Both the position numbers and the translations under genes were made by a program. Below the pieces are notes generated by a model, which was given only the letters and a program-made list of their open reading frames with translations, did not search any database and had not been told where the DNA came from. DNA of 64,000 nucleotides from Pseudomonadota bacterium (lineage in GTDB: Bacteria; Pseudomonadota; Gammaproteobacteria; Burkholderiales; Gallionellaceae), in the NCBI GenBank assembly GCA_021821945.1, contig JAJZTF010000003.1:1-64000 (forward strand). Direction: 5' to 3'. Below, in pieces: positions 1,458-50,724 of this stretch. Within the stretch, counting starts at the first letter, position 1, and each line of letters opens with the position of its first letter.

Positions 1458-3809
1458 TTACATGCGCAATTGCGCACCCTTATTGTTCAATGCGTCAACC
1501 AGCAACGCAATGCTCTGTTCGATTTCGCCTTCGTTGAGCGTCTTTTGAGTATCTTGTAACAACACCCGGAATGCAAGACTTTTTTTGCCTTGCGCGACGC
1601 CGGTTCCCCTGTATACGTCAAACAGGGTGATCTCCTGCACGTATGGCGCCTTTGCTTCGCGCATCGCATCTGCAAGATCCTTCGCCTGCACATGCTCGTC
1701 CACCAGAACCGCGAGATCGCGCCTCACGGGCAGGGACTTCGCGACCTCCTCGAGATGGGGGACGTCCGCCTTCATCAGCGCATCCGCATCGAGTTCGAAA
1801 AGGATGCAGGCCTGCGGCATGTCCTGCTGCCAGTTCGGATGGAGTTCACCCATCCATCCTATGCTTCTGCCGCCGCAGAAGATCTCCGCGGAACGGCCTG
1901 GATGGAAAGCCGGATGGGGTGCTGGCAGGAATTCTGGAACGGAAGGGAAAAGCAGCGCCTCGACATCCGCCTTCACGTCGTAGAAATCGACCGGAACCGG
2001 TTTTGCGCCCCATTGCTCCTGCATCCTGCTGCCATATGCGATGCCCGAGACCCGCTCGTTCTGAGCGTATCCGTTATCCGATCTGGAAAAGCATGCACCA
2101 GCTTCGAAGAGGCGCACACGCGCTTGCCGCCGGTTGAGATTGAATCTGAGCGCCGCCAGCAGTCCGCCCAAGAGGGAGCTGCGCATCACGGAGAGATTGC
2201 TCGCTATCGGGTTCTGAAGGTGGACCGGATCGGCGTTACCGGAAAGCGTCCTTTCGGTATCCAGGTCCGAGAAGGAAAGGCTGACGATCTCCTGATAGTC
2301 CCGCTCGACCAGTTTCTGCTTGATGCCGGAGATGCTGCGGACGGTCTCGCTGTCCGGAAGCATGGTGAGCCTTGCATGAGGCGAAATCGCCGGAATGTTT
2401 TCATAGCCGTGGAGGCGTGCGACTTCCTCGATCAGGTCTGCCTCTATCTCCAGGTCATGGCGGAAAGAGGGGGGGGTGACGATGAAAAGGTCGCCATCGG
2501 GTTTGAACCCGAGCTTAAGACGCTCGAGGATGGACGCAATCCTGTCCGTTTCAAGCGTAATGCCCAATACGCGACAGACGCGTGATGCGCGAAGCGTTAT
2601 CGGTTCGCGCACAGGCATGGTGCCTGATATCTCGGTGGCCTCGCAGGCCTGGCCGCCGCAGATCTCGATGATCAGCTGCGTTGCCCTCTCAAGGCATTTT
2701 CTCGTGGCGGCAAAATCCACGCCTCGCTCGAAGCGGAAGGAGGAGTCCGTCGCGAGTCCGAAGCGGCGGGCGCGCCCGGCGATCGCATCGGGATTGAAAT
2801 AGGCCGCCTCCAGGAAGACGTTTTTGGTGTCATCGCCCACGCTGCTGTCCTGTCCTCCCATGATGCCGGCCAAGGCGAGCGCGCGCTTCTGGTCCGCGAT
2901 CACGAGCACCTGTTCGTCGAGGGTGACGGACTGGTCGTTCAGCAGCCTGAGGCTTTCTCCGTTTGTTGCGCGCCGCACGGTGATGCCGCCGGAAAGCTTG
3001 TCCGCATCGAATGCATGCATGGGCTGTCCGAATTCCATCATCACATAGTTCGTGATGTCGACGACCGCGCTGATCGAACGCACCCCGCTGCGCTCCAGGC
3101 GGCGCTGCATCCAGGCGGGCGTTTTCGCATTCGCATTTATACCCTTCACCAGCCTTCCACAATAAAGCGGACAGGCGGCTTTGTCATCGATCCTGACTTC
3201 CATCCTATCGGACAGGGCAGCCGGTGTGTCGGCGACGGAAATCGGATGGATCCCGCATCCCGTAAGCGCTGCGACTTCGCGCGCGATGCCGGCTATCCCG
3301 GAGCAGTCGCTGCGGTTGGGCGTGAGCTTCAGCGTGTAGAGATGGTCGTCAAAGTCCAGATAACGGCGCAGGTCTTCGCCCACAGGCGCATCCCCTGGCA
3401 GTATCAGCAGACCGTCGCTTTCCTCGGGGAGGCCAAGCTCCTTGCTTGAGCAGAGCATCCCGAAAGACTCGATTCCGCGCACCTTGGCCTGCCTGATCCT
3501 GAAGTCGTTCGGGAGCACGGCGCCTATGCGGGCGCAGGGAACCCTGATGCCCGCCTTCACGTTGGGTGCGCCGCACACGATGGCAAGCGGCTCGGCTTCG
3601 CCGACATTCACCCGGCATACGTTCAGGCGGTCCGCATCGGGATGCTTCTCGACGGACAGGACTTCTGCCACCACCACGCCGCTGAAGGCGGGCGCCACCC
3701 TTTCCATCGCCTCGACCTCGAGGCCCGCCATCGTCAGCAGATGCGAGAGTTCCTCGCTCGTGAGATCCGGGTTCACCCAGGTTCTTAGCCAGTTCTCGGA
3801 AAATTTCAT
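1458..3809 (-). CDS. pheT: Phenylalanine-tRNA ligase beta subunit
   Basis: A 783-residue subunit of the cytoplasmic alpha2-beta2 enzyme that charges tRNA-Phe. From the N-terminus: core start MKFSENWLRTWVNP, an EMAP/tRNA-binding domain (VVVAEVLSVEKHPDADRL, about residues 45-150), the B3/B4 editing region, the B5 domain (about 400-475), the catalytic-like core, and a C-terminal anticodon-binding FDX-ACB fold that opens with KSLPVRRDLAVLVDEH. The length is normal for the family. It starts ten bases after pheS. Confidence 0.97.
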   Translation of the reverse strand: MKFSENWLRTWVNPDLTSEELSHLLTMAGLEVEAMERVAPAFSGVVVAEVLSVEKHPDADRLNVCRVNVGEAEPLAIVCGAPNVKAGIRVPCARIGAVLPNDFRIRQAKVRGIESFGMLCSSKELGLPEESDGLLILPGDAPVGEDLRRYLDFDDHLYTLKLTPNRSDCSGIAGIAREVAALTGCGIHPISVADTPAALSDRMEVRIDDKAACPLYCGRLVKGINANAKTPAWMQRRLERSGVRSISAVVDITNYVMMEFGQPMHAFDADKLSGGITVRRATNGESLRLLNDQSVTLDEQVLVIADQKRALALAGIMGGQDSSVGDDTKNVFLEAAYFNPDAIAGRARRFGLATDSSFRFERGVDFAATRKCLERATQLIIEICGGQACEATEISGTMPVREPITLRASRVCRVLGITLETDRIASILERLKLGFKPDGDLFIVTPPSFRHDLEIEADLIEEVARLHGYENIPAISPHARLTMLPDSETVRSISGIKQKLVERDYQEIVSLSFSDLDTERTLSGNADPVHLQNPIASNLSVMRSSLLGGLLAALRFNLNRRQARVRLFEAGACFSRSDNGYAQNERVSGIAYGSRMQEQWGAKPVPVDFYDVKADVEALLFPSVPEFLPAPHPAFHPGRSAEIFCGGRSIGWMGELHPNWQQDMPQACILFELDADALMKADVPHLEEVAKSLPVRRDLAVLVDEHVQAKDLADAMREAKAPYVQEITLFDVYRGTGVAQGKKSLAFRVLLQDTQKTLNEGEIEQSIALLVDALNNKGAQLRM

Positions 3810-17832: not shown

Positions 17833-17960
17833 TTGACATCCTCCCCTCCCTGAAGGAAGGGAATTCCTACGGTGCTCAAGGGTGACATGGTGTTATCCCT
17901 GAGTCGCTTCGGTGGGTTCCTGCTGCTGTCGGTCTTGCTGCACCGCTCACTTCACAGGCG
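17813..17960 (-). ncRNA. Putative omega (right-end) RNA of the TnpB element
   Basis: In IS605/IS1341 elements the guide RNA comes from the 3' end of tnpB and the right end. Here the right end carries the hairpin CCCTTCCTTCAGGGAGGG followed by GAGGATGTCAA. The guide would begin at about 17832 with ACCAGATCCTTTCTCAAGG, which is yafQ sequence. The 5' limit is a guess. Confidence 0.4.
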
Positions 17961-19233
17961 ATCCGGGCTGTGCTTGCGCACCCGGCAGAAGCGTCTGCCG
18001 TGTCCTGCCCTTCGAGCATCTTCATTCCTCGGTTGAGGACGTTTATCGCACCAACCAGGTCGGCGTTTTCAACAAATCCACATTCCATGCAGGCAAACCT
18101 GGCTTGCGTCTGGCGGTTGTCTGCCGAGACATGGCCACAGCACGGACAAGTCCGGCTGGTGTTGTGCGGCGGCACAGCGATCAGCCAGCCTCCCGCCCAC
18201 ACCAACTTGTAGTCCAGTTGCCGTCTGAACTCACTCCAGCCTTGGTCGAGGATGGCTTTGTTCAGGCCGGACTTGGCTTTCACGTTGCGCCCTGGTGCTG
18301 CTATGCTTCCTGCTGCTGACTTGGACATGTTACATACCTGCAAGTCCTCAACACACACCATCGCGTGTTTTTTGCTGATCGTGGTTGTGGTCTTGTGCAG
18401 GAAGTCCTGTCTGACATGGGAGATGCGGCTGTGAATCTTCTGGACTTTGGCCTTCGCCTTCTTCCAGTTGTTGCTGAACTTGGTTTTGCGGCTCAAGGAC
18501 TGCTGCGCACGGCGCAGCCTGTCCTGATGCCGTTTGAAGCTGTTGAGCGATTCGATGTGGCTTCCATCGGACAGCGTGGCAAAGCGGGCAATACCCACGT
18601 CGATGCCCACGGCTGACGATGAGCGGGGTATTGGCTGCTCTACCTCGCGCTCGGTCTGGATCGAAGCGTACCATTTGCCGCTGGACTGGCTGATAGTGAT
18701 GTTCTTCGGCGTGCCCAACACCTCACGGCTGTAGCGAACCCGCATCCAGCCGAGTTTCGGCAGGAGCACGCGACGGTTCGCCTGGTCGATCTTGAAACCT
18801 TGCGGATAGCGGAATTTGTCGTACACGCCTTTCTTCTTGAATTCCGGGAAATCAGCACGCTTCTCGAAGAAGTTCTTGTAGGCTTCCTCAAGGTTTTTGA
18901 GCGCTTGCTGCAATGTCTGCGAAGGCGATTCATTAAGCCACAGGGTTTCTGGCTGCGATTTCCATGCGGTGAGTTCCTTGCACAGACCGGCGTAGCCCAT
19001 CTTCTTCTCGCCACGCTGGTAGCGGTCCTTTTGCAACGCCAGCGCCTTGTTGAAGACGAAGCGGCATGCCCCGGCAAAGCGGCGCATCTGGCGTTGCTGT
19101 TCGCCGGTAGGCTTTAGCTCGAATAGATAGGCTTGCAGTCTCAACATGAATTCAGATTAGCACATCATTAACCCGTTTCAACCCATGAATGCTCACGCAT
19201 TCGCGCTATTCATCTCCGGCCTGAACACCGGAG
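17833..19233 (-). mobile_element. IS605-group element carrying tnpB only (IS1341 type)
   Basis: The right end has the family hairpin (17841-17868) and terminal GATGTCAA. The left end has subterminal hairpins GAATGC-TCAC-GCATTC (19187-19202) and CTCCGG / CCGGAG (19214-19233). No tnpA is present, so the element cannot transpose without help. Removing it rejoins the yafQ frame precisely (AAA | ACC AGA TCC), which fixes the ends to within one or two bases. There is no target duplication, as expected for this family. Confidence 0.85.
17876..19147 (-). CDS. tnpB: TnpB RNA-guided endonuclease
   Basis: A 423-residue protein with an N-terminal HTH/wedge region (MLRLQAYLFELKPTGEQ). The split RuvC nuclease is intact: Asp183 (VGIDVGIA), Glu267 (MVCVEDLQV), Asp363 (VENADLVGAINVL). 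The zinc finger has C334/C337 and C353/C356. TnpB uses omega RNA to cut DNA at the empty target site and so keeps the element in place. The frame is undamaged, so it is probably still functional. Confidence 0.93.
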   Translation of the reverse strand: MLRLQAYLFELKPTGEQQRQMRRFAGACRFVFNKALALQKDRYQRGEKKMGYAGLCKELTAWKSQPETLWLNESPSQTLQQALKNLEEAYKNFFEKRADFPEFKKKGVYDKFRYPQGFKIDQANRRVLLPKLGWMRVRYSREVLGTPKNITISQSSGKWYASIQTEREVEQPIPRSSSAVGIDVGIARFATLSDGSHIESLNSFKRHQDRLRRAQQSLSRKTKFSNNWKKAKAKVQKIHSRISHVRQDFLHKTTTTISKKHAMVCVEDLQVCNMSKSAAGSIAAPGRNVKAKSGLNKAILDQGWSEFRRQLDYKLVWAGGWLIAVPPHNTSRTCPCCGHVSADNRQTQARFACMECGFVENADLVGAINVLNRGMKMLEGQDTADASAGCASTARIACEVSGAARPTAAGTHRSDSGITPCHP

Positions 19234-19234
19234 T

Positions 19235-19277
19235 TTTCGCGCTTTCTGGTAATCGCAGGCGTTGGGCGGAATGGCCC
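19235..19277 (-). pseudogene. yafQ: YafQ-type toxin, 5' part with lost start codon
   Basis: Immediately after the dinJ stop (TAA) the same frame reads ACG GGC CAT TCC GCC CAA CGC CTG CGA TTA, ending in AAA at the element boundary. The first codon is ACG where ATG would be expected, one transition away. With the 3' part it restores a normal YafQ-length protein. The toxin thus carries two lesions. Confidence 0.65.
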
Positions 19278-19688: not shown

Positions 19689-20654
19689 ATGACGAGCTTC
19701 GTGTTGAGCGTGCGAAACAGGGATGCGGATGCATTCGGCAAGGGATTCGGAAGGCCTTGCTATCTCGGCATACCTGACGGGGAGGATGTTCCCCGCCCTT
19801 CCCACAGGATGGGCAGCGCGTCGCAGTGGATGAAGGCGGTCGTGGACGACGCCTACCCTGAAGGGAAGGCATGGCTGGACGTGGTATTCTTCGTGCACGG
19901 CTACAACACGGATGCGAGGGAGGCCCTGCTGCGCCAGAGGCTGGTCGAGAAGGAGCTCGGAAGGCGCGGCCTTGCATGCATGGTCATCGGCTTCGACTGG
20001 CCGACGGCGGGAAATGCGCTCCTCTATTCCTACGACAGGTTCGAGGCCCAGGATGCCGCTTCGTCCCTGGTGAAGGCGGGCATCATCCCCTTTTCGAAAT
20101 TCACGGTCGACAACTGCCCCGTCAACGTGCACCTGATCGCGCATTCCATGGGCGGCTTCGTCGTGCGCGAGGCCTTCCGCGGAGTGGACAAGGGCAGGGA
20201 CGCGAACCTCGCGAACGACTGGCGCATAGGGCAGCTCGTGCTTTTTGCGGCCGACATCTCGTCGGACTGCTTCGCGCTCGGGAATCCGGACATGCTCCCC
20301 GTTTTCAGGCACTGCGGCCGCCTCACCAACTACTACAGCGGTTACGACCATGCGCTCGCGGCGTCCAACGTGAAGAACGTGGACTTCAGGTCGCGCGTGG
20401 GGCGGGTGGGCATGCCCATGAAGACGCCCGCAAACGAGAAGGCGCTGGATGTGGACTGCGGGCCGCGCTATGCCGCGGTCAGGGACCGCGAACTCAGGAT
20501 CATAGACGGCATGGTCTCGCACTCGTGGTATCTGGAGGATGAACTCTGGTATGACGACCTCGCCCATACCCTGAAGGGGCAGCTCGACCGCCATGTGATC
20601 CCGACCAGGACCTACAGGGGAGAGAATGATTTCGTGCTTAACCCGGGAGTCTGA
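19689..20654 (+). CDS. DUF900-type alpha/beta hydrolase
   Basis: A 321-residue protein of the alpha/beta-hydrolase fold. FFVHGYNTDAREALLRQ is the oxyanion-hole region typical of DUF900, AHSMGGFVVRE carries the nucleophile Ser, and a late SHSWYL can supply the catalytic His. There is no signal peptide. The substrate is unknown. AAGGGGA precedes the start. Its last codons (NPGV and stop) lie in a 32-bp sequence repeated 834 bases downstream. Confidence 0.82.
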   Translation: MTSFVLSVRNRDADAFGKGFGRPCYLGIPDGEDVPRPSHRMGSASQWMKAVVDDAYPEGKAWLDVVFFVHGYNTDAREALLRQRLVEKELGRRGLACMVIGFDWPTAGNALLYSYDRFEAQDAASSLVKAGIIPFSKFTVDNCPVNVHLIAHSMGGFVVREAFRGVDKGRDANLANDWRIGQLVLFAADISSDCFALGNPDMLPVFRHCGRLTNYYSGYDHALAASNVKNVDFRSRVGRVGMPMKTPANEKALDVDCGPRYAAVRDRELRIIDGMVSHSWYLEDELWYDDLAHTLKGQLDRHVIPTRTYRGENDFVLNPGV

Positions 20655-20671
20655 TGCTTCAGGATGTGCAG
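20640..20671 (+). repeat. 32-bp direct repeat, copy 1
   Basis: Starts AACCCGGGAGTCTGATGCTT and ends GGATGTGCAG. It covers the last codons of the DUF900 hydrolase and the 15 bases after it. It is identical over all 32 bases to 21474-21505. The vapBC unit lies exactly between the copies. Confidence 0.95.
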
Positions 20672-20779
20672 AGGCGGAGGGGTTTCAAAACCCGATCAAT
20701 CCGATCCTGTTGAGCGTTATGTCCGGGTTGCCATGACTATGCTTGCCATAATTTTCAAGGCAGTTTCGCTCCATGCGCA

Positions 20780-20823
20780 TTTACAGTTTTCGCATGATGG
20801 AATAAAGTACATACATCGTACAT
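20780..20823 (+). promoter_or_regulatory. vapBC promoter and candidate operator
   Basis: TTTACA (20780-20785), a 17-base spacer and TAAAGT (20803-20808). Overlapping the -10 are two direct GTACAT copies (20807-20812, 20818-20823) one helical turn apart, a plausible VapB(C) autorepression site. Confidence 0.55.
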
Positions 20824-20844
20824 CCATGGATAACGGAGTTTGCA

Positions 20845-21081
20845 ATGCACACCACTAAAGTCTTCAAAAATGGCAATTCGCAGGCCGTCCGCATCCCGGC
20901 CGATATTGCCTACGAGCGCATGGATATAGAACTGGAAATTGAGCGCGATGGTGATGAAATTCGTATTCGTCCTGTTCGCAGGTCGCTGTCTGGCGTGTTG
21001 GCGAAATTTGCCAGGTTTTCGCCGGATTTCATGGCGGAAGGGCGTGGCGAACAAGCGCAAGTCGAAAGGGATTCCCTGTAA
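20845..21081 (+). CDS. vapB: VapB-type antitoxin (SpoVT/AbrB fold)
   Basis: A 78-residue protein. KVFKNGNSQAVRIPADIAYE is the swapped-hairpin AbrB DNA-binding domain of VapB/MazE proteins. The C-terminal tail FARFSPDFMAEGRGEQAQ is the segment that wraps the toxin. It ends at the first base of vapC, so translation is coupled. A second VapB at 36.8 kb shares the same layout (FMAQGRGDAKPQERESF). Confidence 0.92.
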   Translation: MHTTKVFKNGNSQAVRIPADIAYERMDIELEIERDGDEIRIRPVRRSLSGVLAKFARFSPDFMAEGRGEQAQVERDSL

Positions 21082-21488
21082 TGCCGCGCTACATGCTCGA
21101 CACAAACATGTGCATCTACCTGATGAAAAATCAGCCGGAAGTAGTCGCACAACGTTTTGCACAGTGCTACGTCGGTGACGTGGTGATGTCATCTATCACT
21201 TATGCAGAGCTGGAATATGGTGTTGCCGCGTCTGCCAACCCGGAACAAGAGCGCATCAACCTCGCCAGCCTCGTGGAGGACATTCAGGTGGTGCTGTTTG
21301 ATGCGGATGCAGGCGTTGCGTACGGGCCCATTCGACAAGCTACCCGGGATATCAGGACTGATGCCCTGGATAAGCTGATTGCGGCACATGCAGTGGCGCT
21401 TAATGTGACGATTGTTACAAACAACATGAAGGATTTTGCCAGATACCCGGGTGTGCTTTCCGAGAATTGGCTGAACCCGGGAGTCTGA
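21081..21488 (+). CDS. vapC: VapC-type PIN-domain ribonuclease toxin
   Basis: A 135-residue PIN domain with all acidic residues: Asp7 (MLDTNMCIYLM), Glu43 (TYAELEYG), Asp97 (DKLIAAHA) and Asp118 (TNNMKDFA). It should be an active Mg-dependent RNase that cuts tRNA or rRNA. The body ends at ENWL; the last residues NPGV and the stop are supplied by the downstream copy of the 32-bp repeat, showing that the unit uses host flanking sequence to finish its frame. Confidence 0.93.
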   Translation: MPRYMLDTNMCIYLMKNQPEVVAQRFAQCYVGDVVMSSITYAELEYGVAASANPEQERINLASLVEDIQVVLFDADAGVAYGPIRQATRDIRTDALDKLIAAHAVALNVTIVTNNMKDFARYPGVLSENWLNPGV

Positions 21489-21505
21489 TGCTTCAGGATG
21501 TGCAG
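21474..21505 (+). repeat. 32-bp direct repeat, copy 2
   Basis: Identical to 20640-20671. This copy encodes the last VapC codons on the plus strand and, on the minus strand, the C-terminus (CTS and stop) of the convergent acyltransferase. The sequence is therefore the original junction between hydrolase and acyltransferase genes, duplicated on either side of vapBC. Confidence 0.95.
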
Positions 21506-22239
21506 CGGATCAGGCGCGAGAGTATGTCGGCCTCTTCGGCGGGGCTGAAGAAGTAGGGGTAGATGGATTTCTCTTCCGCAGCGTTTTCCATCAGGCCGCC
21601 GAATTTTTTTACCATTTCCGCCGTCCTGGAAAAGCTCGTGCGCATGAGAACTGCCGGGGCGTTGACGCGCGGGCATATACTCTCCTCGCCTATGCGCGTG
21701 AAGCCCAGCCTCTTTTCGTAGAATCCGGCATGGCGGGGGTTGACCTCCATCACGCCGTCGGTGTTTCCGGATATGTGGTACGGATAGAGGTAGCCTATGT
21801 GAAAAAGACTGGCCAGCATGCGCTTGGACCTGATCCCCGAATCCACGGCAAGACTCCTGAATTCGCAGAGGCTGAGGCCCTGGTCCCTCAGACGGTTGAG
21901 TTCGTCGTGGTAGAGCTGGTCGGCCAGAAGGCCCATGCCGGAGTCGGAGGTGACGGAGAGGGTGCCCACCGCATTCTCGTTGGAATAGGCGATGATGGTC
22001 GTCCTGTCCGGTTCGTGCGCCATCACGCCACTGGTCTCATAGCCGCGCCATGAGTACCTCCTGTGCACCAGCTGCCTGGCGGAGTCGAGATGGTGATGGT
22101 TCTGGGCGATCCTGAACTTGAAATGGTGCTCTCCCGGCACGGGGTCGGAAAACTCCATGACGGGATGGGAGGTCTCGCGCCTCATCTCTTCGACGAAGAA
22201 AGCGAGCGTCGAGTCCATGCGATATGTTTTATCGTTCAT
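21493..22239 (-). CDS. PEP-CTERM/exosortase-associated acyltransferase (FeeM/TIGR03694 type)
   Basis: About 248 residues with a GNAT/autoinducer-synthase-like fold. SARQLVHRRYSWRGYET, LCEFRSLAVDSGIRSKRMLASLFHIGYLY and EVNPRHAGFYEKRLGFTRIGEESICPRVNAPAVLM are the conserved blocks I associate with N-acyl amino acid synthases and with TIGR03694 proteins near exosortase loci. It probably moves a fatty acyl group from ACP to an amine. Several Met codons could be the start (22287, 22257, 22239), none with a strong ribosome binding site. A paralogue lies at 28650-29423. Confidence 0.75.
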   Translation of the reverse strand: MNDKTYRMDSTLAFFVEEMRRETSHPVMEFSDPVPGEHHFKFRIAQNHHHLDSARQLVHRRYSWRGYETSGVMAHEPDRTTIIAYSNENAVGTLSVTSDSGMGLLADQLYHDELNRLRDQGLSLCEFRSLAVDSGIRSKRMLASLFHIGYLYPYHISGNTDGVMEVNPRHAGFYEKRLGFTRIGEESICPRVNAPAVLMRTSFSRTAEMVKKFGGLMENAAEEKSIYPYFFSPAEEADILSRLIRCTS

Positions 22240-22358
22240 GCAGTGATCGGGTCTCATACTGTCGGGAACACGCATGAGGGGGCGCAACTTGGCGGGGCCG
22301 GTGCTGCCATGCGTCGAGCTATGTTATATTGGGGCATCCGATTTGACAAGCCGGGGCC

Positions 22359-23081
22359 ATGGAAAATCACGCCGCAGTTCTTCTCGATGGATTGAGCGCA
22401 CTTGCCGCTTTCAGGTGCGCGGACCTTGACGAGAGTCTTGGGAAGCTGACTTTCATGATCTCGGGGATCATGGATGCCGATAACTGCTCCATCATGCTCT
22501 CCGACGACGGCAGGAGCCTCAGGGTCAGGGCGAGTTCTGGCACTCTTCCCGACGCGGCCTACAGGGAATCCGTGAAGAAGGGGGAGGGCATATCCGGCCA
22601 TGTGCTGGCGACGGGCGTTCCCCTCATGATAGAGGACGTGGAGAGATCCGAATTCGCGAGGCATGCGAGAAATCCTTCCTCGATCAAGAAAGGCATGATC
22701 TCCGTGCCCATCGCGATCGACGGCTCCGTTCTCGGCGTGGCCAACATCAATGGCCTGAGGCGCCGGGAAAAATTCACCAGGGAAGACCTGCACGCGATGG
22801 AGGTCGCCGCGTCCTTTGTCGGCAGGATGATCCAGACCCTCCAGCTCAAGCGCACGCTGGAATCCCGCTTCGCCCAGAGGTCGCTCTCGGGGGCGACCGA
22901 AATCAGGATACGCGATGCCCAGAACCCCGAAAGGATGGCAAGGATACTTGCCAAGTCCTTCTACCGCGAGATGGCAGGCGCCGGCTTCAGCCCGGCGCAG
23001 ATCATAGACGCCGCATCCGAAATCATCTCCGAGCTCGGCAAGAGCGTGAGCAGGCACAAGGGGCGGGTCAGGCGCGACTGA
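22359..23081 (+). CDS. GAF-domain protein
   Basis: A 240-residue cytoplasmic protein. Residues 20-165 form a GAF sensor domain (MDADNCSIMLSDDGRSLRVRA, GEGISGHVLATGVPLMIEDV, ISVPIAIDGSVLGVANING). The C-terminal 75 residues are helical and lack any output domain I can name. It may bind a small ligand or partner. It overlaps the next gene by one base (TGATG), so both form an operon. Confidence 0.82.
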   Translation: MENHAAVLLDGLSALAAFRCADLDESLGKLTFMISGIMDADNCSIMLSDDGRSLRVRASSGTLPDAAYRESVKKGEGISGHVLATGVPLMIEDVERSEFARHARNPSSIKKGMISVPIAIDGSVLGVANINGLRRREKFTREDLHAMEVAASFVGRMIQTLQLKRTLESRFAQRSLSGATEIRIRDAQNPERMARILAKSFYREMAGAGFSPAQIIDAASEIISELGKSVSRHKGRVRRD

Positions 23082-23557
23082 TGCGTCCATCCTTCGCACC
23101 CCGGATCGCCGCATGGCATAATGCGCGGGAGGAGGAAGGCAAAGTGAAACTGGAAAAGGAAATCGAGATGCTCATCAGGGAAAGGGACGAGATCAGGTCC
23201 GCCGGTGAGCCGACTGAAAAGCAGACGCAGCGGCTGGCGAAGGTGGAGGCCGAGCTCGCTGCCAGGGAGGAGAAGGACCCGGGCATAATCGGGCATGTTA
23301 CGAAAGACATCGAGCAGGGCAAGTCCCTGCTCGGGCACAAGAACGCGCAGAAATGCCTGTCGCTGGTCAGGCGCAAGCTCTTCCCGCTTGCGGTCAGATC
23401 CAATCAGGGGCTGGTCGTCAGCTCGGAGGCGATAGGGAAGCTCAACAGGGAGGGGGCGGGCATAGGCCGCAACACGCTGATCTCGCTCGAACAGAACAAA
23501 CTCGTGACGCGGATGGAAAACGGCGACCTCGTCCTTCCCTGGGAATGGGACATCTGA
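23081..23557 (+). CDS. Hypothetical coiled-coil protein
   Basis: Up to 158 residues and not recognised. The N-terminal half is charged helix (KLEKEIEMLIRERDEI, QRLAKVEAELAAREEKD), probably a coiled coil. The C-terminal half (LISLEQNKLVTRMENGDLVLPWEWDI) has a winged-helix flavour. A GTG at 23144 preceded by GAGGAAGG may be the true start, giving 137 residues. Its last codons and stop lie in a 29-bp sequence repeated at 24046. Confidence 0.6.
   Translation: MRPSFAPRIAAWHNAREEEGKVKLEKEIEMLIRERDEIRSAGEPTEKQTQRLAKVEAELAAREEKDPGIIGHVTKDIEQGKSLLGHKNAQKCLSLVRRKLFPLAVRSNQGLVVSSEAIGKLNREGAGIGRNTLISLEQNKLVTRMENGDLVLPWEWDI
23529..23557 (+). repeat. 29-bp direct repeat, copy 1
   Basis: Begins TCGTCCTTCCCTGGG and ends GGGACATCTGA. 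It is the 3' end of the upstream coiled-coil gene, including the stop. It matches 24046-24074 at 28 of 29 positions; the higBA remnant lies between the two copies. Confidence 0.92.
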
Positions 23558-23603
23558 TGCTTTCCCGCCTGAATGGCGGAGAGATGTCTCGGTGCTTGCA
23601 CCG

Positions 23604-23623
23604 TTGTATTCGTTCGAATACAA
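23604..23623 (+). promoter_or_regulatory. Operator palindrome upstream of the higBA remnant
   Basis: A perfect inverted repeat TTGTATTCG-TT-CGAATACAA just before the toxin start. It is a likely binding site for the HigA-type antitoxin, still intact although the toxin is not. Confidence 0.65.
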
Positions 23624-23630
23624 TTTGATC

Positions 23631-23696
23631 GTGTACACGATCAAGGTACTTCCTGAATTCAATGCGTGGCTGAAATGCTGGAGGACTGAGTCATGA
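23631..23696 (+). pseudogene. higB: RelE/HigB-type toxin, internally deleted
   Basis: From GTG the frame reads VYTIKVLPEFNAWLKCWRTES and stops. The first 14 residues are the usual N-terminus of a HigB/RelE-type addiction killer protein of about 100 residues. The rest of the toxin is missing and the short tail runs into the antitoxin start with an ATGA overlap, so the original gene order is kept. It cannot be an active RNase. Confidence 0.75.
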
Positions 23697-23998
23697 GCAG
23701 GAAAATCAAGATTTCCGGACTGCCGGACTTCGATATGGCAGAGCACCTGCCGGACGAGCAGGCCATCGCAGAATACCTGACCATAGTGATGGAAGAGAAC
23801 GATCCGTCTGCGTTGGCGCATGCGCTTGGTACCGTGGCGCGCGCTCGCGGTATGTCCCAGATTGCCAAGGATGCCGGCATCGGACGCGAGGCGCTATACA
23901 AGGCATTGCGTCATGGCGCAGATCCACGCTTCGAGACCATATCCCGCGTGTGTCACGCGCTAGGTGTGAAGCTGGTCGTTCAGCCGCTTCATGCTTGA
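23693..23998 (+). CDS. higA: HigA-type antitoxin (addiction module antidote)
   Basis: A 101-residue protein. MSRKIKISGLPDFDMAEHL and EQAIAEYLTIVMEENDPSALAHALGTVARARGMSQIAK lead into the HTH AGIGREALYKALRHGADPRFETI, the pattern of the XRE-like antidotes paired with HigB/RelE toxins. The gene is complete although its toxin is reduced to a 21-residue stub. It ends 47 bases before the second 29-bp repeat. Confidence 0.88.
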   Translation: MSRKIKISGLPDFDMAEHLPDEQAIAEYLTIVMEENDPSALAHALGTVARARGMSQIAKDAGIGREALYKALRHGADPRFETISRVCHALGVKLVVQPLHA

Positions 23999-24045
23999 AA
24001 TTGGATGTCTCCGGGGAGGTCCTGCGATTCTTACGCCAAACAATG

Positions 24046-24074
24046 TCGTCCTCCCCTGGGAATGGGACATCTGA
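24046..24074 (+). repeat. 29-bp direct repeat, copy 2
   Basis: Matches 23529-23557 with one T-to-C difference. This copy is outside any gene, so it looks like the duplicated end of the coiled-coil gene left on the far side of the higBA insertion. Confidence 0.9.
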
Positions 24075-24167: not shown

Positions 24168-25022
24168 ATGTCCCAAGCATATTTTGGCTGGCTGCCAGAC
24201 CTTCCAAGCATAGCCGACTACACGGTCGACCACGAGAAGGTGAAGCCGCTGCTCGCAAGGATAGGCGAGCCGCGAAAGAAGGAGCCGGCCAGGGCTGACC
24301 TGCGGGAATGGTGTTCGCCCATCGAGGATCAGAAGGAACTGGGTTCCTGCACGGCCAATGCGGGAGTGGGGATGGTCGAATACTACGAGCGCCGCGCCTT
24401 CGGCAAGCACATAGACGCATCCCGCCTCTTTTTGTACAAGACGACGCGCGACCTTCTGAAGTCGCAGGGCGACACGGGCGCATATCTGCGCACGACGATG
24501 GAGGCGATGGTGCTTTTCGGCCTGCCCCCGGAAAGCTACTGGCCCTATCTCGTCGCGGACTTCGACAGGGAACCCAGCGCATTCCTCTATTCCTTCGGCC
24601 AGAACTATCAGGCCCTGAGCTACTACAGGCTGGACCCCGCGGGCACGGAGAAGGCCGATCTTCTTAGGCAGATCAGGACCAGCATCGCATCCGGCCTGCC
24701 GGCGATGTTCGGCTTCACCGTTTACAATTCGTATGTGCAGGCGACCCGGGAAAACGGAGGGGCAATACCCTATCCCGTGAAGGGCGACAGGGTGGTCGGA
24801 GGCCACGCCGTGATGGCGGTAGGCTACGACGATGCATTCCAGATCAGAAACGGAAGCGCCAGGGCCACGGTGGGCGCGCTCCTCATCAGGAATTCATGGG
24901 GAACCGCCTGGGGTGACGGGGGGTACGGCTGGCTTCCCTACGAGTACGTCCTGAAAGGCCAGGCTGCCGACTGGTGGGCGCTGATCTCCCAGGAGTGGGT
25001 GGATACGGGGAATTTTGGCTGA
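24168..25022 (+). CDS. Papain-family (C1A) cysteine peptidase
   Basis: A 284-residue protein with the full catalytic set: Gln55 and Cys61 in EDQKELGSCTAN, His213 in VGGHAVMAVGYDD, and Asn242 in IRNSWGTAWGDGGYGWLP. There is no signal peptide or long inhibitory propeptide, so it probably acts in the cytoplasm or is exported by a route not visible here. AGGAG precedes the ATG by eight bases. It stands alone between two TA remnants. Confidence 0.9.
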   Translation: MSQAYFGWLPDLPSIADYTVDHEKVKPLLARIGEPRKKEPARADLREWCSPIEDQKELGSCTANAGVGMVEYYERRAFGKHIDASRLFLYKTTRDLLKSQGDTGAYLRTTMEAMVLFGLPPESYWPYLVADFDREPSAFLYSFGQNYQALSYYRLDPAGTEKADLLRQIRTSIASGLPAMFGFTVYNSYVQATRENGGAIPYPVKGDRVVGGHAVMAVGYDDAFQIRNGSARATVGALLIRNSWGTAWGDGGYGWLPYEYVLKGQAADWWALISQEWVDTGNFG

Positions 25023-37046: not shown

Positions 37047-37453
37047 TGGCGGTGCGCTATCTGCTGGATACGAACATCTGCATCCATATCGCCAAACACA
37101 ATCCACCCATCGTGCGCGAGCGGTTCGCCCGGCATACGGCGAACGAGCTGGTCATGTCCGTGGTCACGCTGGGGGAGTTGCGTTTCGGCGCTGAAAAGAG
37201 CAGGTCGCGCGAGCGGGCATTGGCGGTCATCTCGCAACTTGAATCCGCGATGCAAATTGCGCCACTGAGCGAAGCAGCAGGGCAGCATTACGGACAGATT
37301 CGAGCGGCGCTGCAACAGCGTGGCGAAATTATCGGCAACAACGACCTTTGGCTGGCCGCCCATGCGAGAGCGGAAGGCTGGATACTGGTGACCAACAACG
37401 AGCGTGAATTTGCCCGTGTGGAGGGGTTGCAAGTGGAGAACTGGGCGCTGTGA
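37046..37453 (+). CDS. vapC: VapC-type PIN-domain ribonuclease toxin
   Basis: A 135-residue PIN protein with the acidic set intact: YLLDTNICIHIAK, VVTLGELRFGAEKS, NNDLWLAAHARAEGW and VTNNEREFARVEGL. It is predicted to be an active RNase held by the VapB upstream. As at 21.1 kb, the family core ends at ENW and the last two codons and stop come from sequence that may belong to the insertion site. Confidence 0.93.
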   Translation: MAVRYLLDTNICIHIAKHNPPIVRERFARHTANELVMSVVTLGELRFGAEKSRSRERALAVISQLESAMQIAPLSEAAGQHYGQIRAALQQRGEIIGNNDLWLAAHARAEGWILVTNNEREFARVEGLQVENWAL

Positions 37454-48966: not shown

Positions 48967-49022
48967 ATGTCTGACCGCACAGAACCAACCTTTCCGGGAA
49001 AGAAGCTGTTGGTCGCGATGTG
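48967..49022 (+). pseudogene. Remnant copy of the 5' end of the glycosyltransferase gene at 49759
   Basis: ATGTCTGACCGCA, then GGGAAAGAAGCTGTTGGTCGCGATGTG, matches the first 41 bases of the GT2 gene at 49759-49799 with about three differences, apart from a 16-base insertion. The reading frame is lost soon after. The intact vapBC pair sits between this remnant and the true gene. Confidence 0.75.
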
Positions 49023-49080
49023 TCAGCCCTGCCATGGTAAGATGCGATTGTTTGCATGTACACTAGGACAGGGGGCTATC

Positions 49081-49320
49081 ATGATCGTAACGGTTTCTGA
49101 GGAAGGTCGTTTGGTTATACCGGCCGAGATACGCAGGCTGCTGGGAATTACGCCTGGCACAAGATTGAATGTTCTGCCTGACGCCGGAGGATTCAGGGTG
49201 CTGGTGGAAGATGCGGGAAAGAACAGGAGCGCGGCCGAATGCGTCGGCGTTTCCGGTTATAAGGGGCGCACGATCCCCGTGGATGAGATGGATGCAGCAA
49301 AATTTGCATTCAGGCCATGA
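49081..49320 (+). CDS. vapB: AbrB-family antitoxin
   Basis: A 79-residue protein. MIVTVSEEGRLVIPAEIRRLLGITPGTRLNVL is the AbrB swapped-hairpin domain; the tail VSGYKGRTIPVDEMDAAKFA is the usual toxin-binding segment of antitoxins paired with VapC. AGGGGGC precedes ATG. It overlaps the toxin gene by ATGA. It belongs to a different VapB subfamily from the two others in the window. Confidence 0.9.
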   Translation: MIVTVSEEGRLVIPAEIRRLLGITPGTRLNVLPDAGGFRVLVEDAGKNRSAAECVGVSGYKGRTIPVDEMDAAKFAFRP

Positions 49321-49751
49321 TTGCGCTTGATACCAATGTTCTTGCAAGGCTGGTGACAAATGACGATCCGGTGCAGGCAGGCCAGGCAGTTGCGCTGATT
49401 GATATGGGTACTGCATTGTTTGTACCGCTGACTGTGATGCTGGAACTTGAATGGGTATTGCGCGGCGCGTATGGACTGGACAAGTCCGACATATCTAGAT
49501 CGTTTGAAGCATTGCTGTCAATAAGGAACATCCTCTTTGAAAGACAGCCGGATATTCACCTGGCGCTTCAATATTATCAGCTTGGTTTTGATTTCGCCGA
49601 TGCGTTGCATCATACGGGAACGGTCGGCTGCAAATCGCTGGCGACATTTGACCAGAAGTTTGAAAAGCGAGCGGCCAAGGCAAAGTTGAAGCCGCAAGCA
49701 GTTTCGCCAGCGTCGTTGATCCGGCCAGACTCTGATGCCAATTCTCGCTGA
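49317..49751 (+). CDS. vapC: VapC-type PIN-domain ribonuclease toxin
   Basis: A 144-residue PIN protein: MIALDTNVLARLVTNDD, VPLTVMLELEWVLRGAYG, FDFADALHHTGTVGCKSLATFDQKF contain the four acidic positions. It is intact and probably active. Only seven bases separate its stop from the GT2 start. The unit is flanked by two copies of the GT2 5' end. Confidence 0.92.
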   Translation: MIALDTNVLARLVTNDDPVQAGQAVALIDMGTALFVPLTVMLELEWVLRGAYGLDKSDISRSFEALLSIRNILFERQPDIHLALQYYQLGFDFADALHHTGTVGCKSLATFDQKFEKRAAKAKLKPQAVSPASLIRPDSDANSR

Positions 49752-49758
49752 TTCAGCC

Positions 49759-50724
49759 ATGTCTGATCGCAAGGGAAAGAGGCTGTCGGTCGCGATGTGC
49801 ACCTACAACGGCGGGCGCTTCGTCGCGGAGCAGCTGCGCTCGATACTCGAACAGTCGAGGCCGGTGGACGAGATCGTGATCTCCGACGACGGATCCACGG
49901 ATGCCACGCTGGAGGAGGTGCGAAAGACGCTGGCGGCATTTCCCGGACAGGCGCCCGAGCTCAGGATACTCGGGGGCGAGAGGCTGGGCATCGTGCGCAA
50001 CTTCGCGCGCGCGGCAGGTGAGTGCACGGGCGACATCATATTCCTCTGCGACCAGGACGACGTGTGGCTGCCCTCCAAGGTGGGGGAGATGGCAGCCGTC
50101 TTCGAACGCGATCCGGATGCGCTGCTGGCATGGAGCGACGCGCATCTCGTGGACGGACAGCTGCGCGATCTGGGCAGGTCGCAGTTCCAGATGGTGAGGA
50201 TGACCGATGATCTGCGCAGGTCGCTGGAGGGGCCTTCAGGGTTCGAGGCGCTCTTGCGCCGCAACGTGGTGACGGGTGCGACGGTCGCCTTCAGGCGCGA
50301 ACTGCTCGGCATCGCGCTGCCCTTCGCGGATTGCTGGCTGCACGACGAATGGCTCGCGATCCTGGCGGCCTCCAAGGGCGGGCTGAGGCTGGTCGAAAAG
50401 CCTCTGGTTCTCTACCGCCAGCACGGCTCCAACCAGTGCGGCATGAGGCCCGAGCCGTTCTCCGCACAGCTCGCCCAGGCGTCATCCAGGGCGCCTGAGC
50501 ATTCCGGCGCCAGGCGCATACGCCAGGTGATGGAGAGGCTGGATGATCCCGGTCAGCGCAGGATGGAACACCTCCAGTCGGCGCTGGCCTTCGAGGAATG
50601 GCGGAGGAAGCTTCCTGCCTCGCGCGTCATTCGCGCAATCTCCATCGGCCTCATGGCTGGGAAATACTGGCGCCATGCGGACGGGGCGAGGTCTGCCGCC
50701 AAGGACATGCTCGCGCGCTACTGA
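49759..50724 (+). CDS. Glycosyltransferase family 2 (rhamnosyltransferase-like)
   Basis: A 321-residue protein. SVAMCTYNGGRFVAEQLRSIL, EIVISDDGSTDATLEEV, NFARAAGECTGDIIFLCDQDDVW (DxD) and WLHDEWLAILAASKG are GT2 motifs of the rhamnosyltransferase-like branch. The start MSDRKGKR is used; its first bases are repeated at 48967. Translation of the upstream vapC ends just before it, so expression may be coupled. Confidence 0.9.
   Translation: MSDRKGKRLSVAMCTYNGGRFVAEQLRSILEQSRPVDEIVISDDGSTDATLEEVRKTLAAFPGQAPELRILGGERLGIVRNFARAAGECTGDIIFLCDQDDVWLPSKVGEMAAVFERDPDALLAWSDAHLVDGQLRDLGRSQFQMVRMTDDLRRSLEGPSGFEALLRRNVVTGATVAFRRELLGIALPFADCWLHDEWLAILAASKGGLRLVEKPLVLYRQHGSNQCGMRPEPFSAQLAQASSRAPEHSGARRIRQVMERLDDPGQRRMEHLQSALAFEEWRRKLPASRVIRAISIGLMAGKYWRHADGARSAAKDMLARY

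Follow-up and report, generated by a model that had tools for sequence, protein, structure and literature searches.

Toxin-antitoxin units between repeated gene ends in a Gallionellaceae genome: homology-anchored illegitimate recombination as a candidate route of capture

How do chromosomal toxin-antitoxin (TA) units move when no mobile element is visible around them? This open question is raised by the 64,000-nucleotide stretch analysed here (positions 1 to 64,000 of contig JAJZTF010000003.1, assembly GCA_021821945.1, from a Pseudomonadota bacterium of the family Gallionellaceae; referred to below, at its full length, as the window), in which two type II TA units, a vapBC pair and the remnant of a higBA pair, lie between short direct repeats. 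We lean, with modest confidence, to the reading that such units are captured through illegitimate recombination anchored by homology, and do not move as transposons. Compared genomes carry G-numbers, and many of them are drafts with tens to hundreds of contigs. At the first two sites protein families are Pfam matches; elsewhere, names given without Pfam (glycosyltransferase, ABC-F/EttA-type, NirB-like, acyl-CoA synthetase/GNAT, HsdR-like, RAYT-like, pilin, FKBP) come from reading of the protein. The first site is built as follows.

19689-20654, plus strand: alpha/beta hydrolase of the DUF900 family, whose 3' end is repeat copy 1 (Pfam)
20636-20671, plus strand: repeat copy 1 of site 1, perfect from 20640, with the hydrolase C-terminus, its stop and the convergent FeeM end (sequence comparison)
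20672-21473, plus strand: 802-bp insert with vapBC (comparison with relatives)
20845-21081, plus strand: vapB, MazE/AbrB-type antitoxin (Pfam)
21081-21488, plus strand: vapC, PIN toxin, in which the codons past residue 131 and the stop are repeat copy 2 (Pfam, homologue comparison)
21470-21505, plus strand: repeat copy 2 of site 1 (sequence comparison)
21493-22287, minus strand: FeeM-like N-acyl amino acid synthase, convergent, with its stop inside copy 2 (Pfam)

A preliminary description, made from the sequence alone, had reported a perfect 32-bp repeat here, with the upstream gene's 3' end as copy 1, the end of the convergent gene in copy 2 and a VapC that borrows its stop codon from copy 2, and all of this stands. 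Positions 20640-20671 and 21474-21505 agree at 32/32 bases, at 35/36 when counted from 20636 and at 37/39 over 20636-20674. In the relatives G004 and G079 vapBC is missing and the hydrolase and FeeM ends share a single junction copy of ca. 35 bp, as had been predicted for genomes lacking the unit. The window VapC ends in ENWL/NPGV followed by the stop, whereas 8/8 homologues examined (of 80) continue past ENWL with other residues. On this comparison the insert ends within vapC, with NPGV and the stop being the hydrolase's own C-terminus; a transposon end at this point is hardly likely. Homology to the vapBC genes of other Proteobacteria covers the last ca. 700 bp of the insert and leaves out its first ca. 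100 bp; the homology to relatives reaches the last base or nearly so, stopping inside vapC. A CT(G/T)AAC match at the vapC joint is a possible microhomology. A plasmid donor for this vapBC was sought among 91 plasmid records and rejected, all of them being just 60-80% identical. Upstream, a separate insertion at 17833-19248, which G004 and G079 lack at the corresponding position, carries a TnpB-like gene (by reading) at 17876-19147 on the minus strand.

The second site follows shortly downstream.

23081-23557, plus strand: gene for a 158-aa protein without Pfam match, whose 3' end is copy 1 of site 2 (open reading frame, Pfam)
23529-23557, plus strand: repeat copy 1 of site 2 (sequence comparison)
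23558-24045, plus strand: 488-bp insert with a higB-like gene start, an internal deletion and higA (comparison with relatives)
23693-23998, plus strand: higA-like antidote gene, HI1420 family (Pfam)
24046-24074, plus strand: repeat copy 2 of site 2 (sequence comparison)
24168-25022, plus strand: C1-family peptidase, downstream of the site (Pfam)

Copies 23529-23557 and 24046-24074 agree at 28/29 bases, the single mismatch and the origin of copy 1 in the end of the 158-aa gene being as first described, and the toxin gene beside higA is mostly deleted when G004 is taken as reference. At three related sites higA is missing (two places in G079, one of them a paralogous locus, and one in G080); there the 158-aa gene end is single and the peptidase gene comes next. 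Judged against these relatives, sites 1 and 2 are true insertions. The end of the 158-aa gene looks like a hotspot for TA units, since in locus L019 (G004:C21, 300-3107, reverse strand) it is followed by a longer row of several TA-like genes, one of them a HigA with 96% identity to the window's.

We extended the repeat scan to the 199.7-kb contig carrying the window, and it yielded a third unit that had not been described before, this time at a gene start.

48996-49022, plus strand: repeat copy 1 of site 3 (25/27; likeness to copy 2 by eye from ca. 48967, with a 15-nt gap)
49023-49772, plus strand: 750-bp insert with vapBC
49081-49320, plus strand: vapB, MazE-type (Pfam)
49317-49751, plus strand: vapC, PIN (Pfam)
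49773-49799, plus strand: repeat copy 2 of site 3, within the first codons of the glycosyltransferase-like gene
49735-50724, plus strand: glycosyltransferase-like gene (by reading, no family search), whose first codons are repeated sequence

Homologues of this last gene in G080 and G032 lack vapBC, but their upstream spacer differs, so that the empty site is partly shown. The expectation that TA units enter just at gene ends was thus right for sites 1 and 2 and too narrow in general: site 3 lies at a gene start, and some cases from the genus fall in intergenic sequence or sequence resembling repetitive extragenic palindromes (REP).

Could repeats of this kind surround any gene? The contig scan found six repeat pairs, of which three bracket TA units and three read as paralogous genes or repeated domains; a stricter scan left just the three TA-bracketing pairs, and 20 Markov-resampled contigs, with the settings unchanged, gave 0 pairs against the six of the real contig. 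The window vapC at 37055 had no bracketing repeat in the contig scan. A wider scan of 953,351 bases (553,351 of the own genome and 200,000 each of G027 and G063) returned 14 pairs, sorted by reading into seven paralogues or repeated domains and seven others; of the latter, five enclose TA units, one a RAYT-like gene and the last a gene of small secreted type. Repeat-bracketed inserts are therefore not confined to TA units, as 2/7 of the non-paralogue inserts carry other genes, and here the preliminary description, which dealt with TA units, is not fully borne out. The RAYT-like transposase gene (G027:C5, 150767-151533, in L181) lies within a 51-bp repeat (48/51) that runs across the junction of two neighbouring genes, from the end of the first into the start of the second, and the secreted-type gene (G000:C28, 1382-2035, in L194) is bracketed by a duplicate (44/52) of an apparent ABC-transporter gene end. 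Synteny with G080:C3 was tried as a means of listing all insertions and dropped, the gene order being too rearranged.

Across the genus we surveyed 80 TA loci, namely the first 40 vapC and the first 40 higA matches in listed order that start at or beyond base 3000 of their contig, leaving out the query loci, the window vapC at 37055, one higA inside a stretch already taken, and G075:C7:76075. Direct repeats bracket 16/80 of them (6 vapC, 10 higA) versus 18/431 control intervals in the same stretches (Fisher p = 7e-6), a p-value that, like those that follow from this survey, is approximate, since several loci come from one genome and the control intervals overlap (500-bp steps) and are not cleared of other TA units. 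With this excess the preliminary description escapes the refutation that it had named, repeats equally frequent around random genes. The count shrinks to 10/80 (p = 0.006) once six cases whose repeats are dispersed, multicopy or long-spaced are removed post hoc, the controls staying uncleaned, and to 9/80 (p = 0.015) when L113, whose repeat may be paralogous, is taken out as well. That the repeats are older dispersed or paralogous sequences beside which the TA genes stand by coincidence draws some support from these six of 16 and from L113, and also from the 7/14 pairs in the unselected stretches that look paralogous by reading; against it, relatives hold one copy at both window sites and the other cases are gene ends, and we regard it as highly improbable. 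A further 43 pairs occur in the surveyed loci, many of them paralogues or multicopy sequences; three checked with Pfam bracket DUF5615, DUF2442 and Fic genes. One pair, L148 1683-1736 (54/54), was set aside because its copy 1 lies mid-gene and misfits the gene-end pattern. Outside the genus, among the best 80 of at least 296 VapC relatives in named genomes, 7/80 are bracketed versus 1/66 controls (p = 0.057), and the effect there is unproven.

Three gene ends met in this way were traced in 76 congeners, with 30 loci examined of 63 genomes with a match for an EttA-type ABC-F gene, 30 of 54 for an acyl-CoA synthetase/GNAT gene and 26 of 27 for a NirB-like gene. At the ABC-F end a second gene-end copy is present in six loci, in each with a TA-type gene between the copies, and TA-type genes (by Pfam, vapC search or clear resemblance) lie downstream in 16/30 loci. 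The duplicate thus accompanies 6/16 loci with a TA-type gene and 0/14 without (p = 0.013; p = 0.017 without L231, which has 132 bp downstream only; 6/18 vs 0/12, p = 0.031, when L236 and L241 are counted as possible TA-type carriers). Loci L226-L255 mark this 3' end as a TA hotspot, in 16 to 18 of 30 loci, for the families VapBC, DUF433/DUF5615, DUF4160, Gp49/HTH and Phd. The acyl-CoA synthetase/GNAT end is duplicated in two loci, with DUF2442 and BrnT respectively (Pfam), L295 having 44 bp downstream only. At the NirB-like end the own genome has a duplicate with higBA, G026 a 76% duplicate with no clear TA gene, and G080 a VapC-like gene with no repeat; a self-match at 41-60 proved to be an overlap artefact. 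L119 and L118 have the same HsdR-like gene end, followed in G076 by a unit of VapC type and in G010 by a gene of the Fic family; both show a gene-end repeat, and the two repeats differ in length.

TA units of more than one family have entered at a single gene end, and their repeats differ in length, in keeping with the earlier proposal of a shared route. Over the 20 pairs examined the gapped repeat measures 27-216 bp, for which reason a target-site duplication of fixed length was rejected, and its sequence varies from site to site. These figures bear on a classical mobile element that duplicates its target, be it an insertion sequence, a mini-transposon mobilised in trans, an integrase-dependent cassette or a REP/RAYT-type element. 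The first two units had been described as free of inverted termini, and none of the three window inserts shows terminal inverted repeats within 40 bp of its ends (best 7/10 bases); the site 1 insert stops inside vapC. Conserved insert ends were also sought by comparing 22 inserts all against all, and what emerged, by reading, was homology within TA families and, at one hotspot, leaders common to the inserts. In favour of an element one may cite the RAYT-like gene of G027, itself inside a 51-bp repeat, and the motif GATGCTGACCCC, possibly a REP-like element, which is found near several TA genes and yet in 2/22 inserts only. Taken together we judge a classical element very unlikely; against an integrase-dependent cassette it is the difference of the repeats between sites that counts, no search aimed at attC or an integrase having been made. 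The motif stands shortly behind the TA genes in L121 (5981), L123 (6409), L153 (6302) and L248 (near the insert end); it was matched 11 times over the 0.85 Mb of TA loci and twice over the 0.95 Mb of unselected sequence.

Where, then, do the two copies come from? In 11 coding cases out of the 20 pairs the mismatches between copies fall at codon positions 1/2/3 as 30/21/82 (n = 133), and with L159 (3/6/17) and site 3 (0/2/0) the 13 cases total 33/29/99 of 161, the other seven pairs not being framed. The third-position excess gives p = 3e-13 against one third and p = 2e-5 against 0.45, a value that is our own guess for a pair of one live and one dead copy. The copies in L119 differ by 27 nucleotides and 4 amino acids, those in L123 by 15 and 1. 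A dead duplicate should not respect codons so strongly, and the mostly silent divergence thus disfavours such an origin. It also speaks against an assembly artefact from mixed strains. Many of the compared genomes are indeed drafts, but overlaps left by assembly cannot yield repeats that are ca. 75-92% identical and differ mostly at silent sites, one case lies in G027, an assembly of 5 contigs, and an artefact seems to us scarcely credible.

The nearest relatives of the copies are also informative. In G027 the two are 91.5% identical to each other, with copy 1 at 95.5% to G066 and G021 and copy 2 at 94.4% to G007; in G001 they share 72.7% with each other versus 87.9% and 84.8% with other species. 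The G009 row of this comparison was displaced by one base and was left out. That both copies derive from the recipient's own target is unlikely in these two genomes, to judge from the identities. In G027, G021, G079, G082 and G095 copy 2 is at least about as similar to other species' genes as copy 1. The mostly silent divergence, copies that are not always nearest relatives, and an ABC-F end with its TA unit shared with repeat-free species together suggest one donor-derived and one native copy, so that the repeat would often be a donor gene end imported with the TA unit plus the leftover native end. The original view, an old junction duplicated when the unit entered, agrees with the single-copy junctions of relatives and is not a full account of the diverged cases; the window copies are too similar to distinguish duplication from import.

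The repeat-free loci are found at the ABC-F end. Four species have a TA unit of the same family at this 3' end and no repeat within the 1.5 kb examined. The repeat-bearing G027, G079 and G009 align with the repeat-free G066, G095 and G008 at 80, 75 and 84% over 1208, 1217 and 1213 bp, from inside the gene through the spacer and the TA unit, and each alignment breaks off where the TA unit does, with 4 to 15 bases left before copy 2 begins. The match of G001 to G080 is shorter (699 bp at 75%), reaching only into the TA gene and ending far short of copy 2. The left border is thus shared, and in three pairs the right one is abrupt, which, as read from these alignments, is the anatomy of homology-anchored illegitimate joining. 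Alternatively the left border might come from vertical descent and copy 2 be imported, a possible arrangement, and recombination between lineages is needed either way. The illegitimate joint on the far side is seen at the vapC joint and the ABC-F right borders, with TGG as a possible microhomology in G079. A recombination tract between G027 and G066 proposed from a rise in identity was dropped, the region being generally conserved.

The capture we favour would proceed as follows. A TA unit would enter as a short piece of DNA bearing, or joined to, the end of a host gene; this incoming end would pair with the recipient's own copy as the homologous anchor, and the opposite side of the piece, which in many cases lies directly behind or even within the toxin gene, would be joined illegitimately slightly upstream of the end of the recipient gene. 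The piece might instead be circularised and integrate by a single crossover. Either way the product would be a gene with the incoming end, the TA unit and a leftover native end, the two ends forming what looks like a direct repeat. Gene ends would be favoured because the host gene stays whole, an insertion elsewhere breaking the gene. We infer these recombination steps, as well as competence as the route. The window's two units presumably arose by the same capture, and their near-identical copies would then imply a donor from the recipient's lineage or from one very closely related to it.

Several observations weigh against such a capture. A donor carrying vapBC with an attached hydrolase end was looked for and none was found, a homologous anchor shared with a donor-type locus being seen at the ABC-F hotspot only. 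The near-identical window copies are silent on import, and both mismatches at site 3 alter the protein. In the own genome the NirB-like copies are mutual nearest relatives, with mismatches of 4/1/2, as duplication and decay predict; the G009 copies are identical (33/33, next species 31/32, the latter from a comparison in which copy 2 is set one base off); in G082 the closest sequence to copy 1 is copy 2, which itself stands closer to G091; and in G001 and the NirB-like case copy 2 is less similar than copy 1 to other species' genes. The ABC-F gene is mosaic across the genus, so that later allele exchange at copy 1 could mislead. A detectable repeat is lacking in 64/80 TA loci, and comEC is present, but its family also matches in 10/14 control genomes, including E. 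coli, and says little.

Part of this evidence suits template switching in the recipient, in which a strand under repair or replication would leave the gene end, copy the TA unit from incoming or distant DNA and return tens of bases upstream by microhomology, leaving a true duplication whose copy 1 is later blurred by allele exchange. The window copies (35/36 and 28/29), the NirB-like and G009 pairs and the two possible microhomologies, CT(G/T)AAC and TGG, fit it, and it remains a reasonable competitor, most of all at window sites 1 and 2. It accounts poorly for the mostly silent differences of the diverged cases, for copy 2 in G027, G021, G079, G082 and G095, which is unlike a dead copy, and for a gene end and TA unit held in common with repeat-free species. 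We consider it, overall, the less likely course of events, though one to be taken seriously.

If homology-anchored capture is true, it would explain why TA families gather at one conserved ABC-F 3' end and why a toxin can end in its neighbour's last codons. The scar offers a test from sequence only, in the allele origin of the two gene-end copies. One may go further and suppose that capture of a gene end plus TA unit is a main route by which type II TA units of the chromosome pass from one species to another, the copies being a datable scar that names the donor and recipient lineages; this we put forward tentatively and with some doubt.

The reading also links TA spread with precedents from restriction-modification (R-M) systems and type VI secretion (T6SS). 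Among the matches listed in a literature search, where papers other than those cited here were assessed from their titles and the opening lines of their abstracts, we recognised no report of the kind for type II TA units, and passages of PMC3874152, PMC3031569, PMC2654758 and PMC4615327 do not state a long target duplication of TA units. According to passages of PMC2884548, direct repeats of 5 bp or more, most of them <30 bp, flank 10-18% of small variable segments; there they are tied to deletion between repeats, with no focus in those passages on TA units or gene ends. Closer parallels exist. R-M genes of Helicobacter pylori insert with long target duplication (Nobusato 2000, as cited in parts of PMC3874152, PMC3031569 and PMC1643837), and such duplications are described as long and variable for some R-M systems (PMC3874152, in part). 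Like our cases, these are addiction-type units that came to light when related genomes were compared, and the direct repeats around them vary in length. The difference, as far as those passages go, is that R-M genes and repeats of the order of 100 bp are concerned, whereas here the units are type II TA, the repeats go down to ca. 27-32 bp and the copies often come from different lineages. Homology-facilitated illegitimate recombination (HFIR), with one homologous anchor and one illegitimate joint as proposed here, is documented in E. coli conjugation, where circle-integration single crossovers left partial gene duplications in 56/60 clones, of 109-950 bp in the 14 sequenced (PMC3240628, in the parts consulted); those were laboratory events, and ours are natural, recurrent and with TA units. 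Finally, in the capture of T6SS effector-immunity modules by Vibrio cholerae, for which the authors suggest HFIR (PMC5361080, from passages of that paper), a toxin/immunity pair likewise enters beside a conserved anchor and shifts the native sequence downstream; there whole immunity genes are left behind, whereas here the units are intracellular TA pairs and what is left is a fragment of an unrelated host gene.

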